This document shows positions 2,406-60,061 of a stretch of 64,000 bases of DNA, piece by piece. The position numbers were made by a program, and so were the translations under genes. Source of the stretch: Bifidobacterium coryneforme (lineage in GTDB: Bacteria > Actinomycetota > Actinomycetes > Actinomycetales > Bifidobacteriaceae); assembly GCF_000737865.1 (NCBI RefSeq), contig NZ_CP007287.1, positions 1,268,252 through 1,332,251 of the forward strand, in the 5' to 3' direction. The notes under the pieces are model-generated. The model was not told the DNA's origin and did no database searches. It saw only the letters and a program-made list of their open reading frames with translations. Every line of letters starts with the position of its first letter. Position 1 is the first letter of the stretch.

Positions 2406-4628
2406 TCAGTCGGCAATATTGCCGACCGCCTCTTTTAGCTTCGCCTGCAAAGCCGGGTCGACCGCGAAAAGATACAGCCCATGAACCCCACGCTTTAACA
2501 GCACATTGAGTTCATTCCTGAGATTGGTTTCAGAAAAATCATGGCTATTCTTACCTTCATGCCGCCTATTCGTCGCCAAGTAATTCGCACTGGCATCTCT
2601 GTCGAATTTGATTTTCCCATCACGATATTTGACCGACGGCCCGATAATCAGCCCGGCAAAATTCAAGTCGAACCCTTGTATGGTGAAGGTCGACCCTATC
2701 TCATCAATCGTGTGCCTCTTTTCCGCCCAAGCTTTATTGCCATCAACCCGTTGATTCCTCGGCACGATCTCCCGGATTTGATTGTTCCAAGGCTTGCAAA
2801 AGAACTCATCACTCAGCACGCCCACTTGTTTATCCCGTTTGGCTCGATCCGTCTTTTTGCACAGCCTTGCTCTCACCTCGGCCATTTCGGCATCACCAGC
2901 TTGCAGAGGGATCCAACGATCGCCATCCCGATAGAGGCTGACGTTCCAATACCCTAAAGGATCATCTGTATTCGGTGATCCTTCCGTATACTTCCAGTCG
3001 TATGTAGCCAAAATACGTGATAGTCCTCTGCCCCTCCAACCATCAGTACCCTCGCAATCCTTTTCTTTGATGGCCTTAAACAAATCTACCGGAGAGTCGA
3101 AAACTCTGATTTCATAAGGCTCCCGTATGCACGTTCCATCTTTGTCCACCTCGCCCGGATCACTAGGAAGAGTCCCTATAACACCTTCAGATATGATATT
3201 GTCCAACCATTCAACGATTCCGTCGCTGGCAGCTATGCGGAACTGCTGCTTTAAACGAATATGAGCCACTTCGACAGTTTCCTTGGGCAGTCCGAGTTCA
3301 GGACCAAATTCAGCCCTCCTGAAATCGCTCATATGTCCAGCAGGAACTGTTTGAATCTGACCATCTCCCTCTATTGGCCCCAGGACCTTTTTAAGTAGAT
3401 CAGAGTTCAATTGTTGTCGAGCTTGCAGAATCTGAAATGGGTCAAAAACCGCTATCACAACTCGTGCCCGTCGGATGATGTCATAGAGCTGACTGCGGCC
3501 ACTATATGCCTGATAACCCTGAGTCATCAATAAGTGGGCTTCATCAATGAGTACCACGTCGGCTTTCCCTGTAACCGTTCCCAAATTAGGACGACCGTTG
3601 CCCAGTTTTCCACTATGCCTGGCTATAAAAGCATTTGGCTTCAGGACAATTTCCTTAGACTCCCTTTGCAAGCCCAGCTTAAGAGCAATCTGGTCATAAA
3701 CAGCTACTTGTTCAGACTGGTTGACAACAAGGTAAGCCGACATGCTCCCCTGCTGGGCATCCGAGGATTCTCCTGAATGGTCTAGCACCTCTTCGCCGAG
3801 CACCTCGAGAACAGGGGCAGAACTCGATACCTCTGTCATAATCCTGTAGAACAAATGGCTGAGCAACACGGTTTTACCCGTTCCGGCCAAACCATGAACG
3901 AAGATTAATTTAGGGATACTTTTCCCTTGCGTCCCGTCATCTTGCTGCAATATCGGAGCTATTTCAGACAGGATATCCTCCTCCGCCTCTTTTTGCTCTT
4001 GACTGAGTTCATGGAAGGGCGAGGCTTTGAAAAGAGCCGAATCTCTAACAACCTGTTCCGTTGGGAAGAGGACCGGATTTTCCTCATGCAGGGTATGCCA
4101 GATTTGAGAGAAAATGCCCTCGAACTTATCCGATGTGTAATACCGTCCTTGGGGATTGGCACGTCTGTTCTGCAGTTGAACCACTGAATCCGTACTGAGC
4201 AGATAGCTCATTAAACGGTTCTCAACATCCAACGTGAGAGATTTGTTGAACAGTGGATGAGAAATGACATATTGCCAGAATGCCTCGGGGTTGTCGGCCA
4301 CTGCTTGAGCTACCTCGAGCCAGTCAGCACGTGCCCCCAAACCAGTACCCAGGTGCTGTTGAGTACGGCGGATGATATCGTTGGTTTCTCCGACATACGC
4401 TCGGTACCGGTATTGTGATTGAGCCGGATTCTTCGATTCCTCGGCTGCGTAAACCACGTAGACGGTAGGGTAATTCAGCAGATACTGGGTATAATCCTCC
4501 AACAGAGACTGGCTCGAACGCATATCGGCACTGTCTAGTTGGTTTTGGACAGCCGATCGGAAGGAATCCGATTCACATCTGCCATATGGCAGGTTTACGA
4601 TAATTGGCTCCGTAGTCTCAGCAGTCAT
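2406..4628 (-). CDS. GIY-YIG nuclease-like / DUF2075 P-loop ATPase protein
   Basis: A 740-aa two-part protein. Residues ~55-150 look like a GIY-YIG nuclease domain: VYVVYA (56-61), YVGETND (78-84), RRTQQHL, and a candidate catalytic Glu in DVENRLM (E136). Residues ~240-740 form a DUF2075-type P-loop ATPase related to superfamily 1 helicases, with Walker A GLAGTGKT (246-253), DEAH (362-365), FDPFQ and LKQQFRI. A role in cutting or unwinding nucleic acid is inferred; the substrate is unknown. The gene is visibly less GC-rich (about 45% in sampled stretches) than its neighbours and lies alone beside a tRNA, suggesting horizontal acquisition. No Shine-Dalgarno is evident before the ATG; CATAAT lies just upstream, so the transcript may be leaderless. 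Defence against foreign DNA is possible but unproven. Confidence 0.85.
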   Translation of the reverse strand: MTAETTEPIIVNLPYGRCESDSFRSAVQNQLDSADMRSSQSLLEDYTQYLLNYPTVYVVYAAEESKNPAQSQYRYRAYVGETNDIIRRTQQHLGTGLGARADWLEVAQAVADNPEAFWQYVISHPLFNKSLTLDVENRLMSYLLSTDSVVQLQNRRANPQGRYYTSDKFEGIFSQIWHTLHEENPVLFPTEQVVRDSALFKASPFHELSQEQKEAEEDILSEIAPILQQDDGTQGKSIPKLIFVHGLAGTGKTVLLSHLFYRIMTEVSSSAPVLEVLGEEVLDHSGESSDAQQGSMSAYLVVNQSEQVAVYDQIALKLGLQRESKEIVLKPNAFIARHSGKLGNGRPNLGTVTGKADVVLIDEAHLLMTQGYQAYSGRSQLYDIIRRARVVIAVFDPFQILQARQQLNSDLLKKVLGPIEGDGQIQTVPAGHMSDFRRAEFGPELGLPKETVEVAHIRLKQQFRIAASDGIVEWLDNIISEGVIGTLPSDPGEVDKDGTCIREPYEIRVFDSPVDLFKAIKEKDCEGTDGWRGRGLSRILATYDWKYTEGSPNTDDPLGYWNVSLYRDGDRWIPLQAGDAEMAEVRARLCKKTDRAKRDKQVGVLSDEFFCKPWNNQIREIVPRNQRVDGNKAWAEKRHTIDEIGSTFTIQGFDLNFAGLIIGPSVKYRDGKIKFDRDASANYLATNRRHEGKNSHDFSETNLRNELNVLLKRGVHGLYLFAVDPALQAKLKEAVGNIAD

Positions 4629-4854: not shown

Positions 4855-7554
4855 TCATGAGACCCGCAAGAGTCCGTGTGCGCCCTTTTCGGCCAGGCTC
4901 ATTGTGTGATTGACCATGGGGTAGTCACCCGGCTGGTCAACCCTGAATTCCACGAAGCCGCCCTGGGCGGGCAAGAGGGGCAGGACCTGGGCCCCGGCAG
5001 AGGCCGATACTGATGGGTCTGCAGCAGCCGTTCCGCCAATCAGATAATGCCCCTCGGTCCAGACCGTATCGAACTGGGTACCGACCACATGAAAGGCCAG
5101 GGGCTGATTGGGACCGGCGTCCAGCACCCATATGCGGACCCGTTCGCCAGCCTTGAGCCCGAGCGGGTGGGCGTCATATTGGAATGCCCGACCATTGAAG
5201 GCCATGATGTCGGGGTTCATGGACGCCACCTTGACGGAATCGGCCGTTCCACCCTTGGCACCCAGATATGTTTCCGACTGTACCAGGACATACTCGGCAT
5301 CAACGGCCGGCAGGGTGCCATCATCCACGACCACCGCCCCATACATACCGTTGGCTATGTGGTTGGACATGGGTTCACTGCTGCAGTGGTACATCCAAAT
5401 ACCCGCGTGCTCTGCTTTGAAGGTGTACCGAAGGTCCTTGCCAGGCTCGATGTTGCGCATCATGACCTGCGGCACAGCGGGGCCGGCATGGAAATCGATG
5501 GAGTGGCTCATACTGCCCTTGTTTCGAACGGTCACTTCGAAGGTGTCGCCCACATGCCCCCTGAGTACCGGTCCCTGGGCGCGGGGGCGCGAATCCGAAT
5601 CACGTGGGTCATCGGCGTCATCGAAGCTCCACACAGTCCGTTCGAGCCCGGGAGCCACCTTTTCCTTGCGCTCCTTGATGCCCAATACATATTGCCGGAC
5701 TCCCGCCCGGTTTCCGTCCTTCAGGGGCGTAAGGGCCGCTGATGCGGGATTGGACTTCTCAGCCTGGGCCTTGAGCTTGGCGGCTGTCGGAACGGAAGAG
5801 TCCGCAACATCACCAGACCCCATCGCCGCCATACCCTCCATGTGGTGGTCGCCGGCCGTGGATGCCGCCCCCTTGGCCCTGACCTTCAGCTCCATACCCA
5901 TTTGACGGTGCCCCGCCAGGGAGCACCAGCCAAGGGTATCGGCCCCGATTACGCCAACATCGATACGCGCGGCCCCATCGACAGGAACCACACCTGTCTC
6001 CTTACCGTTCGCAAAAACCAGATCATGCCTTTGGTCGCCGGTGTTGCGGAAGTCTACGACCAGACGGTCGCCTGCCGGCACGGTGATTGCGTCAGGAACG
6101 AAAGCCATACCCTTCACCCCCACCGTCACCTGGGTGACATGTCCGGTGGGTTTGACGTTTTCCGCCGGCATCACGCCGTATTCCACCGCGTGGACAGAAC
6201 TGTTCCCGATACCGGATGTGTCTCCTGCCGACTTGACCAGCCCGGGACGAATCACCATCAGAACCATTCCAGCGACCAGGAGCAGGACGGTAATGGCGGT
6301 AAGGACCAAATCGTTGCGCAGCACAATCGCCTCGGGCATTCCGTCTACCGAATCCTCACCCTGCCGGCGGTGCTGCCGCTTGGATGCCAGAATCCGTTTC
6401 CCGCAGGCGGCCAGGTAGACCACGGTCATCATCATGGCCAGCATCCCCACAACATTCAGGGCATTCCCCACCTTCCACATGGGCGTGAAGAGCCGAATGG
6501 TACCCAGGAGCCGAATGAGGAGTCCGGCCTGCATGAATCCCCAGGCCACCCAGAGCAATGGGTGGAAGGGCAGGGGCCTGCGGATGACCGAGGGGACGAT
6601 CATACACACGTGGGCGATGACCATGGTCAGGATGAACCCTATGGCCAGGGCATGCAGAGCCATGTCTCCCCAATAGGTCTGCGAATCCAACGGGGCGACC
6701 ATCCAGATCAGAGCCGCCAGCAGACCCCATCCGTAGGCGGACATCATGCAGGTTCCCATGAATCCAGGCAGTCCACCATGTCGGAAGGTGGTTTTGGCCA
6801 CATCGTGACCAGCCATAACCAGAAGAAGCAGGGCCAGGGACAATCCCAGAAGCGGATACCCAACCTGGGGAGCCATACACTGGGCAGGCAACATCAGCAC
6901 CAGCAGGAGGCTCAAACCGAGTATCCCCGATTCCAGACGAACACTCGAAAAAGCGGCCCTGGCCAGTTCAACCCGCTCCCCCACTATGGTCAGTACCAGG
7001 AAGAGCAACCAGGAGGGAGAAAGAACGGCGGAGTCCAATCCAGCCACCCAACCGGCGGCCCCGACCAGACCCAACAAGGACGCAAGCGTTTGTATCAGCA
7101 CTTCAGCCGATGCCTGACGGCGCCATATGGCCGCATACACAGCCGTCAAGGCCAACATGGACAGGGTCCAGGGAATACCTGCCAAGAGCTCAATCCTGAG
7201 AACCCCGGACTGGGCACCCAGAGCGGAAGCCACCAGGACCATGATGCCCAGGAGCGATCCAAGCAGACCCATGGCCGGAGCCAGGAATCCCCAGCGCGGC
7301 TTGCCGGGACCGCCAGAGCGAAAGGCCACTGCCCGTTCCAGGCCTATGGCCGAGCCCAGAAACCCGTAGACCATCAAGCCTCCATGCAGGTCAGCCAGGG
7401 GGACCCTGCCGGAGGGATGAATCAGGTCGGCACGAATCAGCGCCGCAACCAGACCGAGAAGGGCCGCCAGTCCCGCACCGACCAGGAGAGCAATCCTTGC
7501 TTTGGGCAGGGCAGCCTTGTCTCCGGTCCTGCGCGTCGTCTTGTCATCCTGCAT
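4855..7554 (-). CDS. Membrane-anchored multi-domain copper nitrite reductase
   Basis: An 899-aa fusion. Residues ~20-440 are an array of about ten membrane segments resembling NnrS-type heme/copper membrane proteins (HGGLMVYGFLG, ALHALAIGF). Residues ~470-560 are a cupredoxin with type-1 copper ligands H510, C544, H549 and a Met in WCSLAGHRQMGM. Residues ~610-899 match copper nitrite reductase, which reduces nitrite to NO: type-1 ligands H684, C724, H732, M737; type-2 ligands H689, H723, H883; catalytic Asp687 and His822. The ligand spacings agree with AniA/NirK. The electron donor is not apparent. The ATG at 7554 has AAGGTGG 8 nt upstream; an in-frame GTG at 7566 lacks a good site. It is divergent from a cysteine-rich regulator gene. 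An alternative is a multicopper oxidase of other specificity, but the catalytic pair favours nitrite reduction. Confidence 0.87.
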   Translation of the reverse strand: MQDDKTTRRTGDKAALPKARIALLVGAGLAALLGLVAALIRADLIHPSGRVPLADLHGGLMVYGFLGSAIGLERAVAFRSGGPGKPRWGFLAPAMGLLGSLLGIMVLVASALGAQSGVLRIELLAGIPWTLSMLALTAVYAAIWRRQASAEVLIQTLASLLGLVGAAGWVAGLDSAVLSPSWLLFLVLTIVGERVELARAAFSSVRLESGILGLSLLLVLMLPAQCMAPQVGYPLLGLSLALLLLVMAGHDVAKTTFRHGGLPGFMGTCMMSAYGWGLLAALIWMVAPLDSQTYWGDMALHALAIGFILTMVIAHVCMIVPSVIRRPLPFHPLLWVAWGFMQAGLLIRLLGTIRLFTPMWKVGNALNVVGMLAMMMTVVYLAACGKRILASKRQHRRQGEDSVDGMPEAIVLRNDLVLTAITVLLLVAGMVLMVIRPGLVKSAGDTSGIGNSSVHAVEYGVMPAENVKPTGHVTQVTVGVKGMAFVPDAITVPAGDRLVVDFRNTGDQRHDLVFANGKETGVVPVDGAARIDVGVIGADTLGWCSLAGHRQMGMELKVRAKGAASTAGDHHMEGMAAMGSGDVADSSVPTAAKLKAQAEKSNPASAALTPLKDGNRAGVRQYVLGIKERKEKVAPGLERTVWSFDDADDPRDSDSRPRAQGPVLRGHVGDTFEVTVRNKGSMSHSIDFHAGPAVPQVMMRNIEPGKDLRYTFKAEHAGIWMYHCSSEPMSNHIANGMYGAVVVDDGTLPAVDAEYVLVQSETYLGAKGGTADSVKVASMNPDIMAFNGRAFQYDAHPLGLKAGERVRIWVLDAGPNQPLAFHVVGTQFDTVWTEGHYLIGGTAAADPSVSASAGAQVLPLLPAQGGFVEFRVDQPGDYPMVNHTMSLAEKGAHGLLRVS

Positions 7555-7582
7555 GGAATCGACCACCTTGCCGTGGTTTCAT

Positions 7583-7610
7583 ATTTAATTGGATAGTTAT
7601 ACAATTTAAT
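7583..7610. promoter_or_regulatory. Inverted repeat in divergent nitrite reductase/regulator promoter
   Basis: ATTTAATTG (7583-7591) and CAATTTAAT (7602-7610) form an imperfect inverted repeat (8 of 9 positions) with a 10-bp spacer in an AT-rich gap of under 60 bp between divergent genes. TATACAAT overlaps it and could be the -10 region of the regulator, whose ATG follows within 10 nt, implying a near-leaderless mRNA. The arrangement suits an autoregulated operator. Confidence 0.5.
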
Positions 7611-7612
7611 CG

Positions 7613-8359
7613 ATGAGTCAGGAAATTCAAACCCCTTCCAGCGGAAACGAGACCCCCGCCAAACGACGAAACGGGGAAGCTCTGCGTTCCGCAATCCTCG
7701 ACCGCATTCAGAGGGAAACCCGCTCCGGCGCCCCGGGCCTCTCCGCATATCAAGTCGGGATGATCTTCGGCATCCATCCGACAACAGCCCGCTTCCATCT
7801 CGAACATCTGGTGAAGCAGGGCAGGTTGATTCGCCACCAAGCGGAGACCGCCGGAGCGAATTCTCCGAACAGCCACAAGAGCGGCCGCGGAAGGCCGAGT
7901 ATCATCTACACTCCGGCAGACCAGGAGCAGGCAAGGGAGGACATGATTGCCTCGCTCTGCATAGCCCTGGAATCATCCATCGCCGACCCTCAGGCCAGAG
8001 TCGAGTCCGCCCTTGAAGCAGGGAGAACCTGGGGCCGGCACCTGTCCAATCGGGAACACCGATCAGCCGGCGGATCTTCACCGTCAAACCCTTCCGGACC
8101 GCCACTGAACGTCCTGGAGAACCTGGGGTTCAGGCCGGAACCCATCGGAGAAGATCAACGAAGCTGCTATCTGACGGCCTGCCCCTTCATGGATGACGCC
8201 CTAGCCCACCCCATCATCTGCACCATCCACCTGGGCATGATCCAGGGGATCATGGCAGGCAGGGGACTTCGGACAAGGACCCGATTGGAGCCCTTCGCCT
8301 CCCCGAAAGGATGCCTCCTGGAGGTGCAGACTTCCAACAAGGCCATCGACAAGGATTGA
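7613..8359 (+). CDS. Winged-helix regulator with SufR-like cysteine cluster
   Basis: 248 aa. Residues ~20-80 form a winged helix (YQVGMIFGIHPTTARFHLEHL, read here as the helix-turn-helix and recognition helix, followed by KQGRLIR). The C-terminal half carries four cysteines spaced C-X4-C-X12-C-X30-C. The C-X12-C spacing is the one found in SufR-type Fe-S cluster repressors, and the CPF...HP...C arrangement is common in actinobacterial members of that group. A redox- or NO-sensing Fe-S regulator is therefore inferred. It is divergent from the nitrite reductase gene across a short gap containing an inverted repeat, so it probably controls that gene in response to NO, nitrite or oxygen. A generic ArsR/DeoR-like regulator is the alternative. 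Confidence 0.8.
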   Translation: MSQEIQTPSSGNETPAKRRNGEALRSAILDRIQRETRSGAPGLSAYQVGMIFGIHPTTARFHLEHLVKQGRLIRHQAETAGANSPNSHKSGRGRPSIIYTPADQEQAREDMIASLCIALESSIADPQARVESALEAGRTWGRHLSNREHRSAGGSSPSNPSGPPLNVLENLGFRPEPIGEDQRSCYLTACPFMDDALAHPIICTIHLGMIQGIMAGRGLRTRTRLEPFASPKGCLLEVQTSNKAIDKD

Positions 8360-8424: not shown

Positions 8425-9672
8425 TCACCCTTTGATGAAGTGGGTCTCCATACGCCTCTGGAACCGCGTTGCCGCAAGGATGACCGCCGCCACCAGGGAA
8501 ATCACGAGCATACCGGCGAAGCTGCCGGTCACCGGATTCAGATCCAAAAGTCCGGAAAGACCCTTGAAGGCCCAGGTAGACGTGGTGAATCCCAGACTGG
8601 TGGTGGCCGAGAAGATACCCATCACCAGCGGGTACCGCCTGGGAGAGGTCAGATTGGACAGAAGGAAGGGGCAGGTGGCCATGATGATGGCACTGCCCGA
8701 CCCCACCAGGAAGGCGGACAGACAGACCAGGGGGAATGAGCGGGTGACCAGGAAGAGGATCGCACCCACGGACATCAGGGCAAAGGCGGCGGGAATCGTC
8801 CATTCGCGGAGCAGACGCCGGATCCCGTTGATGCTGAGACCTATCACGACGGACGACCCCGTATTGAACATCAATGCCAGACCTGCCGCACCGGTATCTC
8901 CCAGGCCGTAACGGGTTATGTAGACCGCCAGCTTGTTGTAAAGAACGGCCACCAAAAAGATGCTGAGGAATCCTATCAGTACGCAGGAGACGATACCCCA
9001 CCAGTATTGCTGTCCAACTTCGGATGTGGGGGAATCCGAATGGTAGGTTTCCGTTTCGTCCTCCTCGACCGTGCCCACATTGGGAACCAGGAAGAAGACC
9101 ATGATCAGGGCAGGCAGGGCAAGTAGATACAACCAGTAGTTATGGAGCCACCCGCCCTTGGCCAGGAAACCGCCCAGAGCAAGGATGAGCATGGATGAAC
9201 CATCCTGGACAGCCAGAACCACCCCCATGAGTCCGGCCAGCCGATCCCCCCTGAAGAAGCGCGCCGAAAGGCTGGGAAGGATCGTCGTCGTGATGCCCAC
9301 ACCGAACCCAACCACCAGGGCGAAGACGAGAAGCTGGTTGACGTTGTCATGGATGAACAGGGGAAGCAACCCGCCTAGAGCGATGCAGAAACAGCTGATG
9401 CAACCGGCGGTCCTGAACCTCATCCAGGTCATGAGCTGACCAAAGAGGAGGGCGGAAACGATCGCGGCCGACGCCCCTACCGACACCACCGATTCCACCG
9501 TGGATGGGTCGGCGTGAGGGAAGGAGGCCTGGATGGCTGCGACCGAGGGCGAGATGACGGAATCGAACCGCGACATGACCGCCAAGGCCATGATTCCTGC
9601 AAGAATACCCAGATTCCGACGGGTAAACACCCTGCCCGACACGTCCCCCGACGTCCGTTTCCCCTCGCTCAT
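8425..9672 (-). CDS. MFS transporter
   Basis: 415 aa with about twelve hydrophobic segments in two halves joined by an acidic hydrophilic loop (~residues 195-220, EEDETETYHSD). The N-terminal half (SRFDSVISPSVAAI, then GVGITTTILPSL) is typical of the major facilitator superfamily. The substrate cannot be read from the sequence; it lacks the nitrate signature motifs of NarK. The ATG at 9672 has GGAG 6 nt upstream and is preferred over a TTG at 9684. It converges with the regulator gene on its left and lies 134 bp downstream of the HAD gene on the same strand. Confidence 0.8.
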   Translation of the reverse strand: MSEGKRTSGDVSGRVFTRRNLGILAGIMALAVMSRFDSVISPSVAAIQASFPHADPSTVESVVSVGASAAIVSALLFGQLMTWMRFRTAGCISCFCIALGGLLPLFIHDNVNQLLVFALVVGFGVGITTTILPSLSARFFRGDRLAGLMGVVLAVQDGSSMLILALGGFLAKGGWLHNYWLYLLALPALIMVFFLVPNVGTVEEDETETYHSDSPTSEVGQQYWWGIVSCVLIGFLSIFLVAVLYNKLAVYITRYGLGDTGAAGLALMFNTGSSVVIGLSINGIRRLLREWTIPAAFALMSVGAILFLVTRSFPLVCLSAFLVGSGSAIIMATCPFLLSNLTSPRRYPLVMGIFSATTSLGFTTSTWAFKGLSGLLDLNPVTGSFAGMLVISLVAAVILAATRFQRRMETHFIKG

Positions 9673-9806
9673 CACCTTCTCCAATCTCAGCTTGCCCGAG
9701 ACAGTCTACCCCAGGGCCAGAGCCGGTCCCAGGGCGATGCGGAAACAGTTGGTTGCAGAAGGTGATGGACCTGCAGATCCGTCCATCAGGCCTTGCTGTC
9801 ACCCGG

Positions 9807-59883: not shown

Positions 59884-60061
59884 ATTGGACTCCTAGGAGA
59901 CAAAGGGCACCGGGTCGCCGACCCCTATGGTCAACGTGAACCGGAACCGGAGACAATTGTAGCGCACCTTCAGGAGAACCGAACCTATTGCGCCACACGC
60001 CGAACGGCTTCCCCGAGATTCCAGTACCCCGTACCTATAATCAAACAACCAGACCACCTGA

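Follow-up and report, generated by a model that had tools for sequence, protein, structure and literature searches.

Long copper nitrite reductases (NirK) of about 900 aa, in which a transmembrane domain, a cupredoxin, and a copper nitrite reductase module (CuNIR) are joined, have already been described from Propionibacterium (Cutibacterium) acnes and Corynebacterium (PMC4770552, PMC5338063). The proteins of P. acnes and Corynebacterium pseudotuberculosis (~880-900 aa) carry a polytopic membrane region, a cupredoxin with the motif CX4HX4M, and the CuNIR in one chain. The membrane domain of 400 aa found in actinobacterial NirK has been described as having no known function (PMC4770552). Actinobacterial NirK belong mostly to one clade, and many organisms with a NirK of this clade or of those related to it are without an NO reductase (PMC10999283). 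Enzymes of the Hyphomicrobium denitrificans type also have an N-terminal cupredoxin on the CuNIR; in H. denitrificans NirK this cupredoxin is reported to lie too far from the core for electron transfer and to be dispensable for catalysis (PMC4770552).

The protein analyzed here is encoded in a 64,000-nucleotide window of the genome of Bifidobacterium coryneforme, a bifidobacterium of the honeybee gut, the window being the whole stretch of DNA that was analyzed. It has the same layout as the long NirK of P. acnes and C. pseudotuberculosis, and unlike the Hyphomicrobium type it includes a polytopic membrane module. The three-module long NirK is itself already known, and the novelty lies in the identity of the fused membrane module. 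The window protein fuses a module that we call A (its N-terminal 405 residues), whereas the actinomycete loci that we examined usually fuse a second membrane module, B, and encode A separately; the P. acnes and Corynebacterium enzymes are known here by description. B-fused actinobacterial NirK share with the window protein the CX4HX4M cupredoxin followed by the CuNIR, with module B replaced by A in the latter. The initial annotation had missed that the fused module is, as judged from sequence comparison, different from the usual actinomycete one.

Architecture of the fused nitrite reductase

The coding sequence at 4855..7554 (-) was defined by its open reading frame and profile matches. The full frame (4855-7566, minus strand) encodes 903 aa from a GTG at 7566, or 899 aa from an in-frame ATG at 7554, and residues are numbered here along the full frame. 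From N- to C-terminus the protein consists of a polytopic membrane module, an anchor helix, a type-1 cupredoxin, and the CuNIR module. Module A (6340..7554, minus strand) spans ~405 residues with ~12 helices in a low-confidence prediction. The separate anchor helix before the cupredoxin (6250..6306, minus strand) occupies residues 421-439, and a similar N-terminal helix is found in the stand-alone NIRs of relatives. AlphaFold2 models reached a pLDDT of 40 for the cupredoxin-NIR part (3 sequences) and 45 for module A (2 sequences), too low for the models to serve in searches by fold or in an analysis of the copper sites.

The cupredoxin domain (5872..6141, minus strand) matches Cupredoxin_1 (PF13473) over residues 476-537 with an E value of 1.4e-9 and has a complete type-1 site formed by H514, C548, H553, and M558, bearing out the earlier claim of a fused cupredoxin. 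The catalytic module (4861..5700, minus strand) matches the copper nitrite reductase model TIGR02376 over residues 623-902 (E 1.3e-36), and the best PDB matches of the protein are all CuNIRs (1.8e-39), in agreement with the full CuNIR module claimed in the initial annotation. Every ligand and catalytic residue that had been claimed is also present: H688, C728, H736, and M741 at the type-1 copper, H693, H727, and H887 at the type-2 copper, and the catalytic pair D691 and H826, all aligned with those of PDB CuNIRs. These residues and the cupredoxin ligands are invariant in 49 distinct relatives, save for M741 (Leu in 2) and H887 (Pro in 1). The spacing from Cys to His in the NIR is eight residues, as in the clade II enzymes of the PDB alignments. 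It is thus very likely that the window protein turns nitrite into NO as an enzyme of the CuNIR type.

Module A and its relation to NnrS

The initial annotation had described the N-terminal region as an NnrS-like membrane domain. The membrane domain stands, while the NnrS label finds weak support. Module A scores 8.2 bits against a Pfam NnrS gathering cut-off of 28 bits; a profile of A aligned with an NnrS alignment gave P 9.4e-5 and a probability of 58.8% in hhalign, over the C-terminal half, in a region that includes HALAIGF / HVLTVG. The NnrS side of this comparison was built from sequences encoded on S. meliloti pSymA and on further plasmids; in five plasmid records the nirK neighborhoods contained no annotated NnrS. 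NnrS is the only Pfam family matched by more than one A sequence (5 of 38, best E 0.097), module B has no NnrS similarity of the kind seen for A, and a search of solved structures with the A and NnrS profiles returned no match. NnrS (PF05940) and module A are alike in having ~12 helices, and their profiles may be distantly similar, aligning weakly but in the same order and with a His region in common; they differ in that A falls below the Pfam cut-off, is fused to a NIR, and does not conserve the WHxHE motif as such. Module A is possibly a remote relative of NnrS, and we do not treat it as NnrS.

Three histidines stand out in an alignment of 38 A sequences: His61 and His319 are present in all of them and His305 in 36. 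The two in which His305 is replaced are A genes from Bifidobacteriaceae genomes without a detected NIR part (L040, 7225-8544, and L041, 7121-8647). Since His305 is lost only where the NIR is lost, it appears tied to a NIR-associated role. In both of these sequences the equivalent of Asp301 is gone as well, and His61 and His319 are kept.

Exchange of membrane modules A and B

Homology between modules A and B was rejected, as none was detectable (hhalign probability 0.7%). The usual actinomycete gene order is a regulator, gene A, and then one gene for B + cupredoxin + NIR. In the wider class, 31 of the 394 genomes carry gene A, and 16 of the 20 actinomycete loci examined have A directly followed by the single gene B + cupredoxin + NIR. 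The other 4 comprise 1 at a contig edge, 2 with A away from the NIR, and 1 with a fusion of A to the NIR. In the window protein, A takes the position of B. The cupredoxin-NIR of Actinocrinis puniceicyclus (L021) is 45% identical to that of the window protein and is fused to B, not A.

Module B was not found in the window genome, its genus, or its family, except in five Bifidobacteriaceae genomes (G138, G142, G162, G163, and G164) where A, B, and an anchored cupredoxin-NIR are each encoded by a gene of their own, one after the other. Outside the family, B is present in 27 of the 27 A-bearing genomes tested. B is therefore missing from 26 of 31 NIR-bearing Bifidobacteriaceae versus 0 of 27 A-bearing genomes outside, counts that come from related species and are not independent samples, so that a Fisher test on them overstates independence.

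A tree of 48 NIR domains places the Bifidobacteriaceae on one side of a branch with an SH-aLRT support of 100, and the A-fused forms of the family make up one group (86). The A + cupredoxin + NIR fusion outside the Bifidobacteriaceae (L111, 4458-7037, genome G356, which has a stand-alone B on the same contig) falls apart from this group and is apparently a second, independent fusion of the same kind; L111 and L021 are long branches whose exact placement is unsure.

Distribution and genomic setting

The initial annotation had taken the host to be a probable bifidobacterium, and this is correct: the gene is 99% identical in the chromosome of Bifidobacterium [indicum] DSM 20214. The survey of related genomes that it had proposed found nirK in 17 of the 27 genomes of the GTDB genus, where one copy (in G001) is broken and the others are 73-99% identical. 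The NIR part occurs in 31 of 189 genomes of the family Bifidobacteriaceae. In the broken copy (L051, 6341-9123) the frame changes within A, and the match ends before the last type-2 His, close to the C-terminus. Another genome of the survey has an extra nirK fragment covering residues 767-821, ~5 kb from its intact gene (G007:C1:1301284-1301448, L019).

Contamination of the assembly with DNA of another actinobacterium, which the initial annotation had raised, was not seen. The gene lies in independently sequenced genomes, and its presence in 17 of 27 genus genomes excludes contamination. The window genome is a single contig of 1,755,151 bases with 99.86% completeness and 0.34% contamination, and the G+C content of nirK is 61.4% versus 60.4% for the window. 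With the DSM 20214 copy in addition, we reject this origin as extremely improbable.

A divergent gene at 7613..8359 (+) encodes a regulator with a winged HTH and a C-terminal domain with three Cys that are conserved among its homologs; in 15 of 20 actinomycete loci, the gene immediately upstream of A encodes a homolog. The three-Cys domain may sense NO through Fe-S, a reading about as likely as not, and the regulator would then act on the nirK promoter alone. Between the two genes lies a 26-bp element (7585..7610, no strand assigned) that is conserved in the genus and is a candidate operator or promoter; a genome-wide search for its 18-bp core at ≤3 mismatches gave this single site.

An MFS transporter gene at 8425..9684 (-), identified by a profile match, is a conserved neighbor within the genus. 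In relatives, genes for the ferredoxin FdxA and a 3-methyladenine DNA glycosylase (MPG) come after the regulator or the NIR. They lie beside nirK in L052 (9646-10688), L053, L051, and L035-L037 and do not adjoin it in the window. An MPG in this position could repair nitrosatively deaminated bases. Elsewhere in the window, the large protein encoded at 2406-4628 (-) contains a Schlafen group 3 helicase domain (E 3.7e-73) and has weak similarity to the Nhi and AbiO defense models, and an L31-Actinobacteria ribosomal protein leader lies at 59906-59950 (-).

Respiratory context and proposed mechanism

CydA is encoded in 24 of the 27 genomes of the genus, and every one of the 17 with nirK is among them; cyd and menaquinone genes have been reported in B. 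asteroides (PMC3447821). Searches of the same 27 genomes for PF00115 (heme-copper oxidase/NO reductase) and PF00384 (molybdopterin oxidoreductase, including nitrate reductase) found neither in any of them, and the controls matched. With cytochrome bd present and both of these families missing, NirK would be a lone nitrite-to-NO step; nitrite would have to come from outside, and NO would not be reduced by a known NorB-type enzyme.

We consider it rather probable that the window protein is a membrane-anchored, NO-forming CuNIR of the actinobacterial clade to which its partner A has become covalently fused while B was lost. Under this model, the formerly separate membrane protein A would have joined the cupredoxin-CuNIR chain with loss of the usual fused B. 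Electrons from the membrane, supplied by menaquinol or by a putative heme of module A, would pass to the type-1 copper of the cupredoxin, then to the type-1 copper of the CuNIR, and on to its type-2 copper. Nitrite would be reduced to NO there, outside the membrane, with Asp691 and His826 as the proton relay, and the NO would be released or handled by other means, as no NO reductase homolog was found. Expression of nirK is probably under the control of the three-Cys regulator encoded divergently from it. The sequences themselves show the modules, the ligands, their distribution, and that B was lost; electron entry through module A, in line with the built-in delivery suggested in the initial annotation, is about as likely as not. 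The reportedly dispensable cupredoxin of H. denitrificans counts against an obligatory role for the fused cupredoxin.

That the protein is instead a multicopper oxidase acting on another substrate, such as a copper oxidase, is very improbable. It has Cu-oxidase Pfam matches and, at 126.6 bits, misses the NCBIfam equivalog cut-off for NirK (TIGR02376, 296.3 bits). The separate-gene relative L035 (142.1 bits) and the B-fused Actinocrinis L021 (139.8 bits) miss it as well, so the cut-off, a naming threshold, does not cover this clade. The Asp/His pair and the type-1 and type-2 residues are the set used to tell NirK from laccases (PMC4770552). The CuNIR-specific type-2 His set and Asp/His pair, conserved in the 49 relatives, led us to reject a laccase identity, and the best PDB matches likewise argue against an oxidase. 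It is also improbable, if less so, that this is an ordinary ~900-aa NirK like that of P. acnes, without any distinguishing feature. The same length and the same order of TM region, CX4HX4M cupredoxin, and CuNIR (PMC4770552, PMC5338063) speak for such a view; against it, the usual fused module in the examined loci is B, which has no detectable homology to A and is missing from the window genome.

The main rival concerns what module A does. Rather than an electron conduit, it may be an NO-handling or NO-tolerance module, a role that has been proposed for NnrS, tethered to the enzyme that makes NO in cells that lack NO reductase, which we regard as unlikely but more probable than the preceding alternatives. 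The distant resemblance of its C-terminal half to NnrS, with HALAIGF / HVLTVG aligned, and the standing of NnrS as the sole Pfam family matched by several A sequences are consistent with it, as are the place of nnrS in NO-responsive regulons (PMC1274295) and the lack of a PF00115 protein in the 27 genomes. The function of NnrS is itself unsettled, however, and the Pfam threshold is missed; the loss of His305 along with the NIR agrees with a function tied to turnover of the NIR and does not separate the two roles.

Implications

A fused A module acting with the CuNIR predicts that insect-gut bifidobacteria would form NO enzymatically from nitrite. This is absent from the papers on bifidobacterial respiration consulted here (PMC3447821, PMC4319941), neither of which mentions "nitrite" or "copper", and within the literature library that we searched there was no paper on nirK in bifidobacteria or on nitrate respiration in the bee gut. 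We tentatively extend the model, with less than even confidence, to propose that A is an unrecognized obligate partner of actinobacterial NirK, and that bifidobacteria made A covalent and dropped B, giving a single-polypeptide membrane-to-nitrite reductase that would act in the bee gut as an isolated source of NO. Since the function of the membrane domain was left open (PMC4770552), the comparison of A with B makes the question testable. With A kept and fused and B dispensable, the bifidobacteria would amount to a natural experiment that asks which of the membrane modules is required by NirK.
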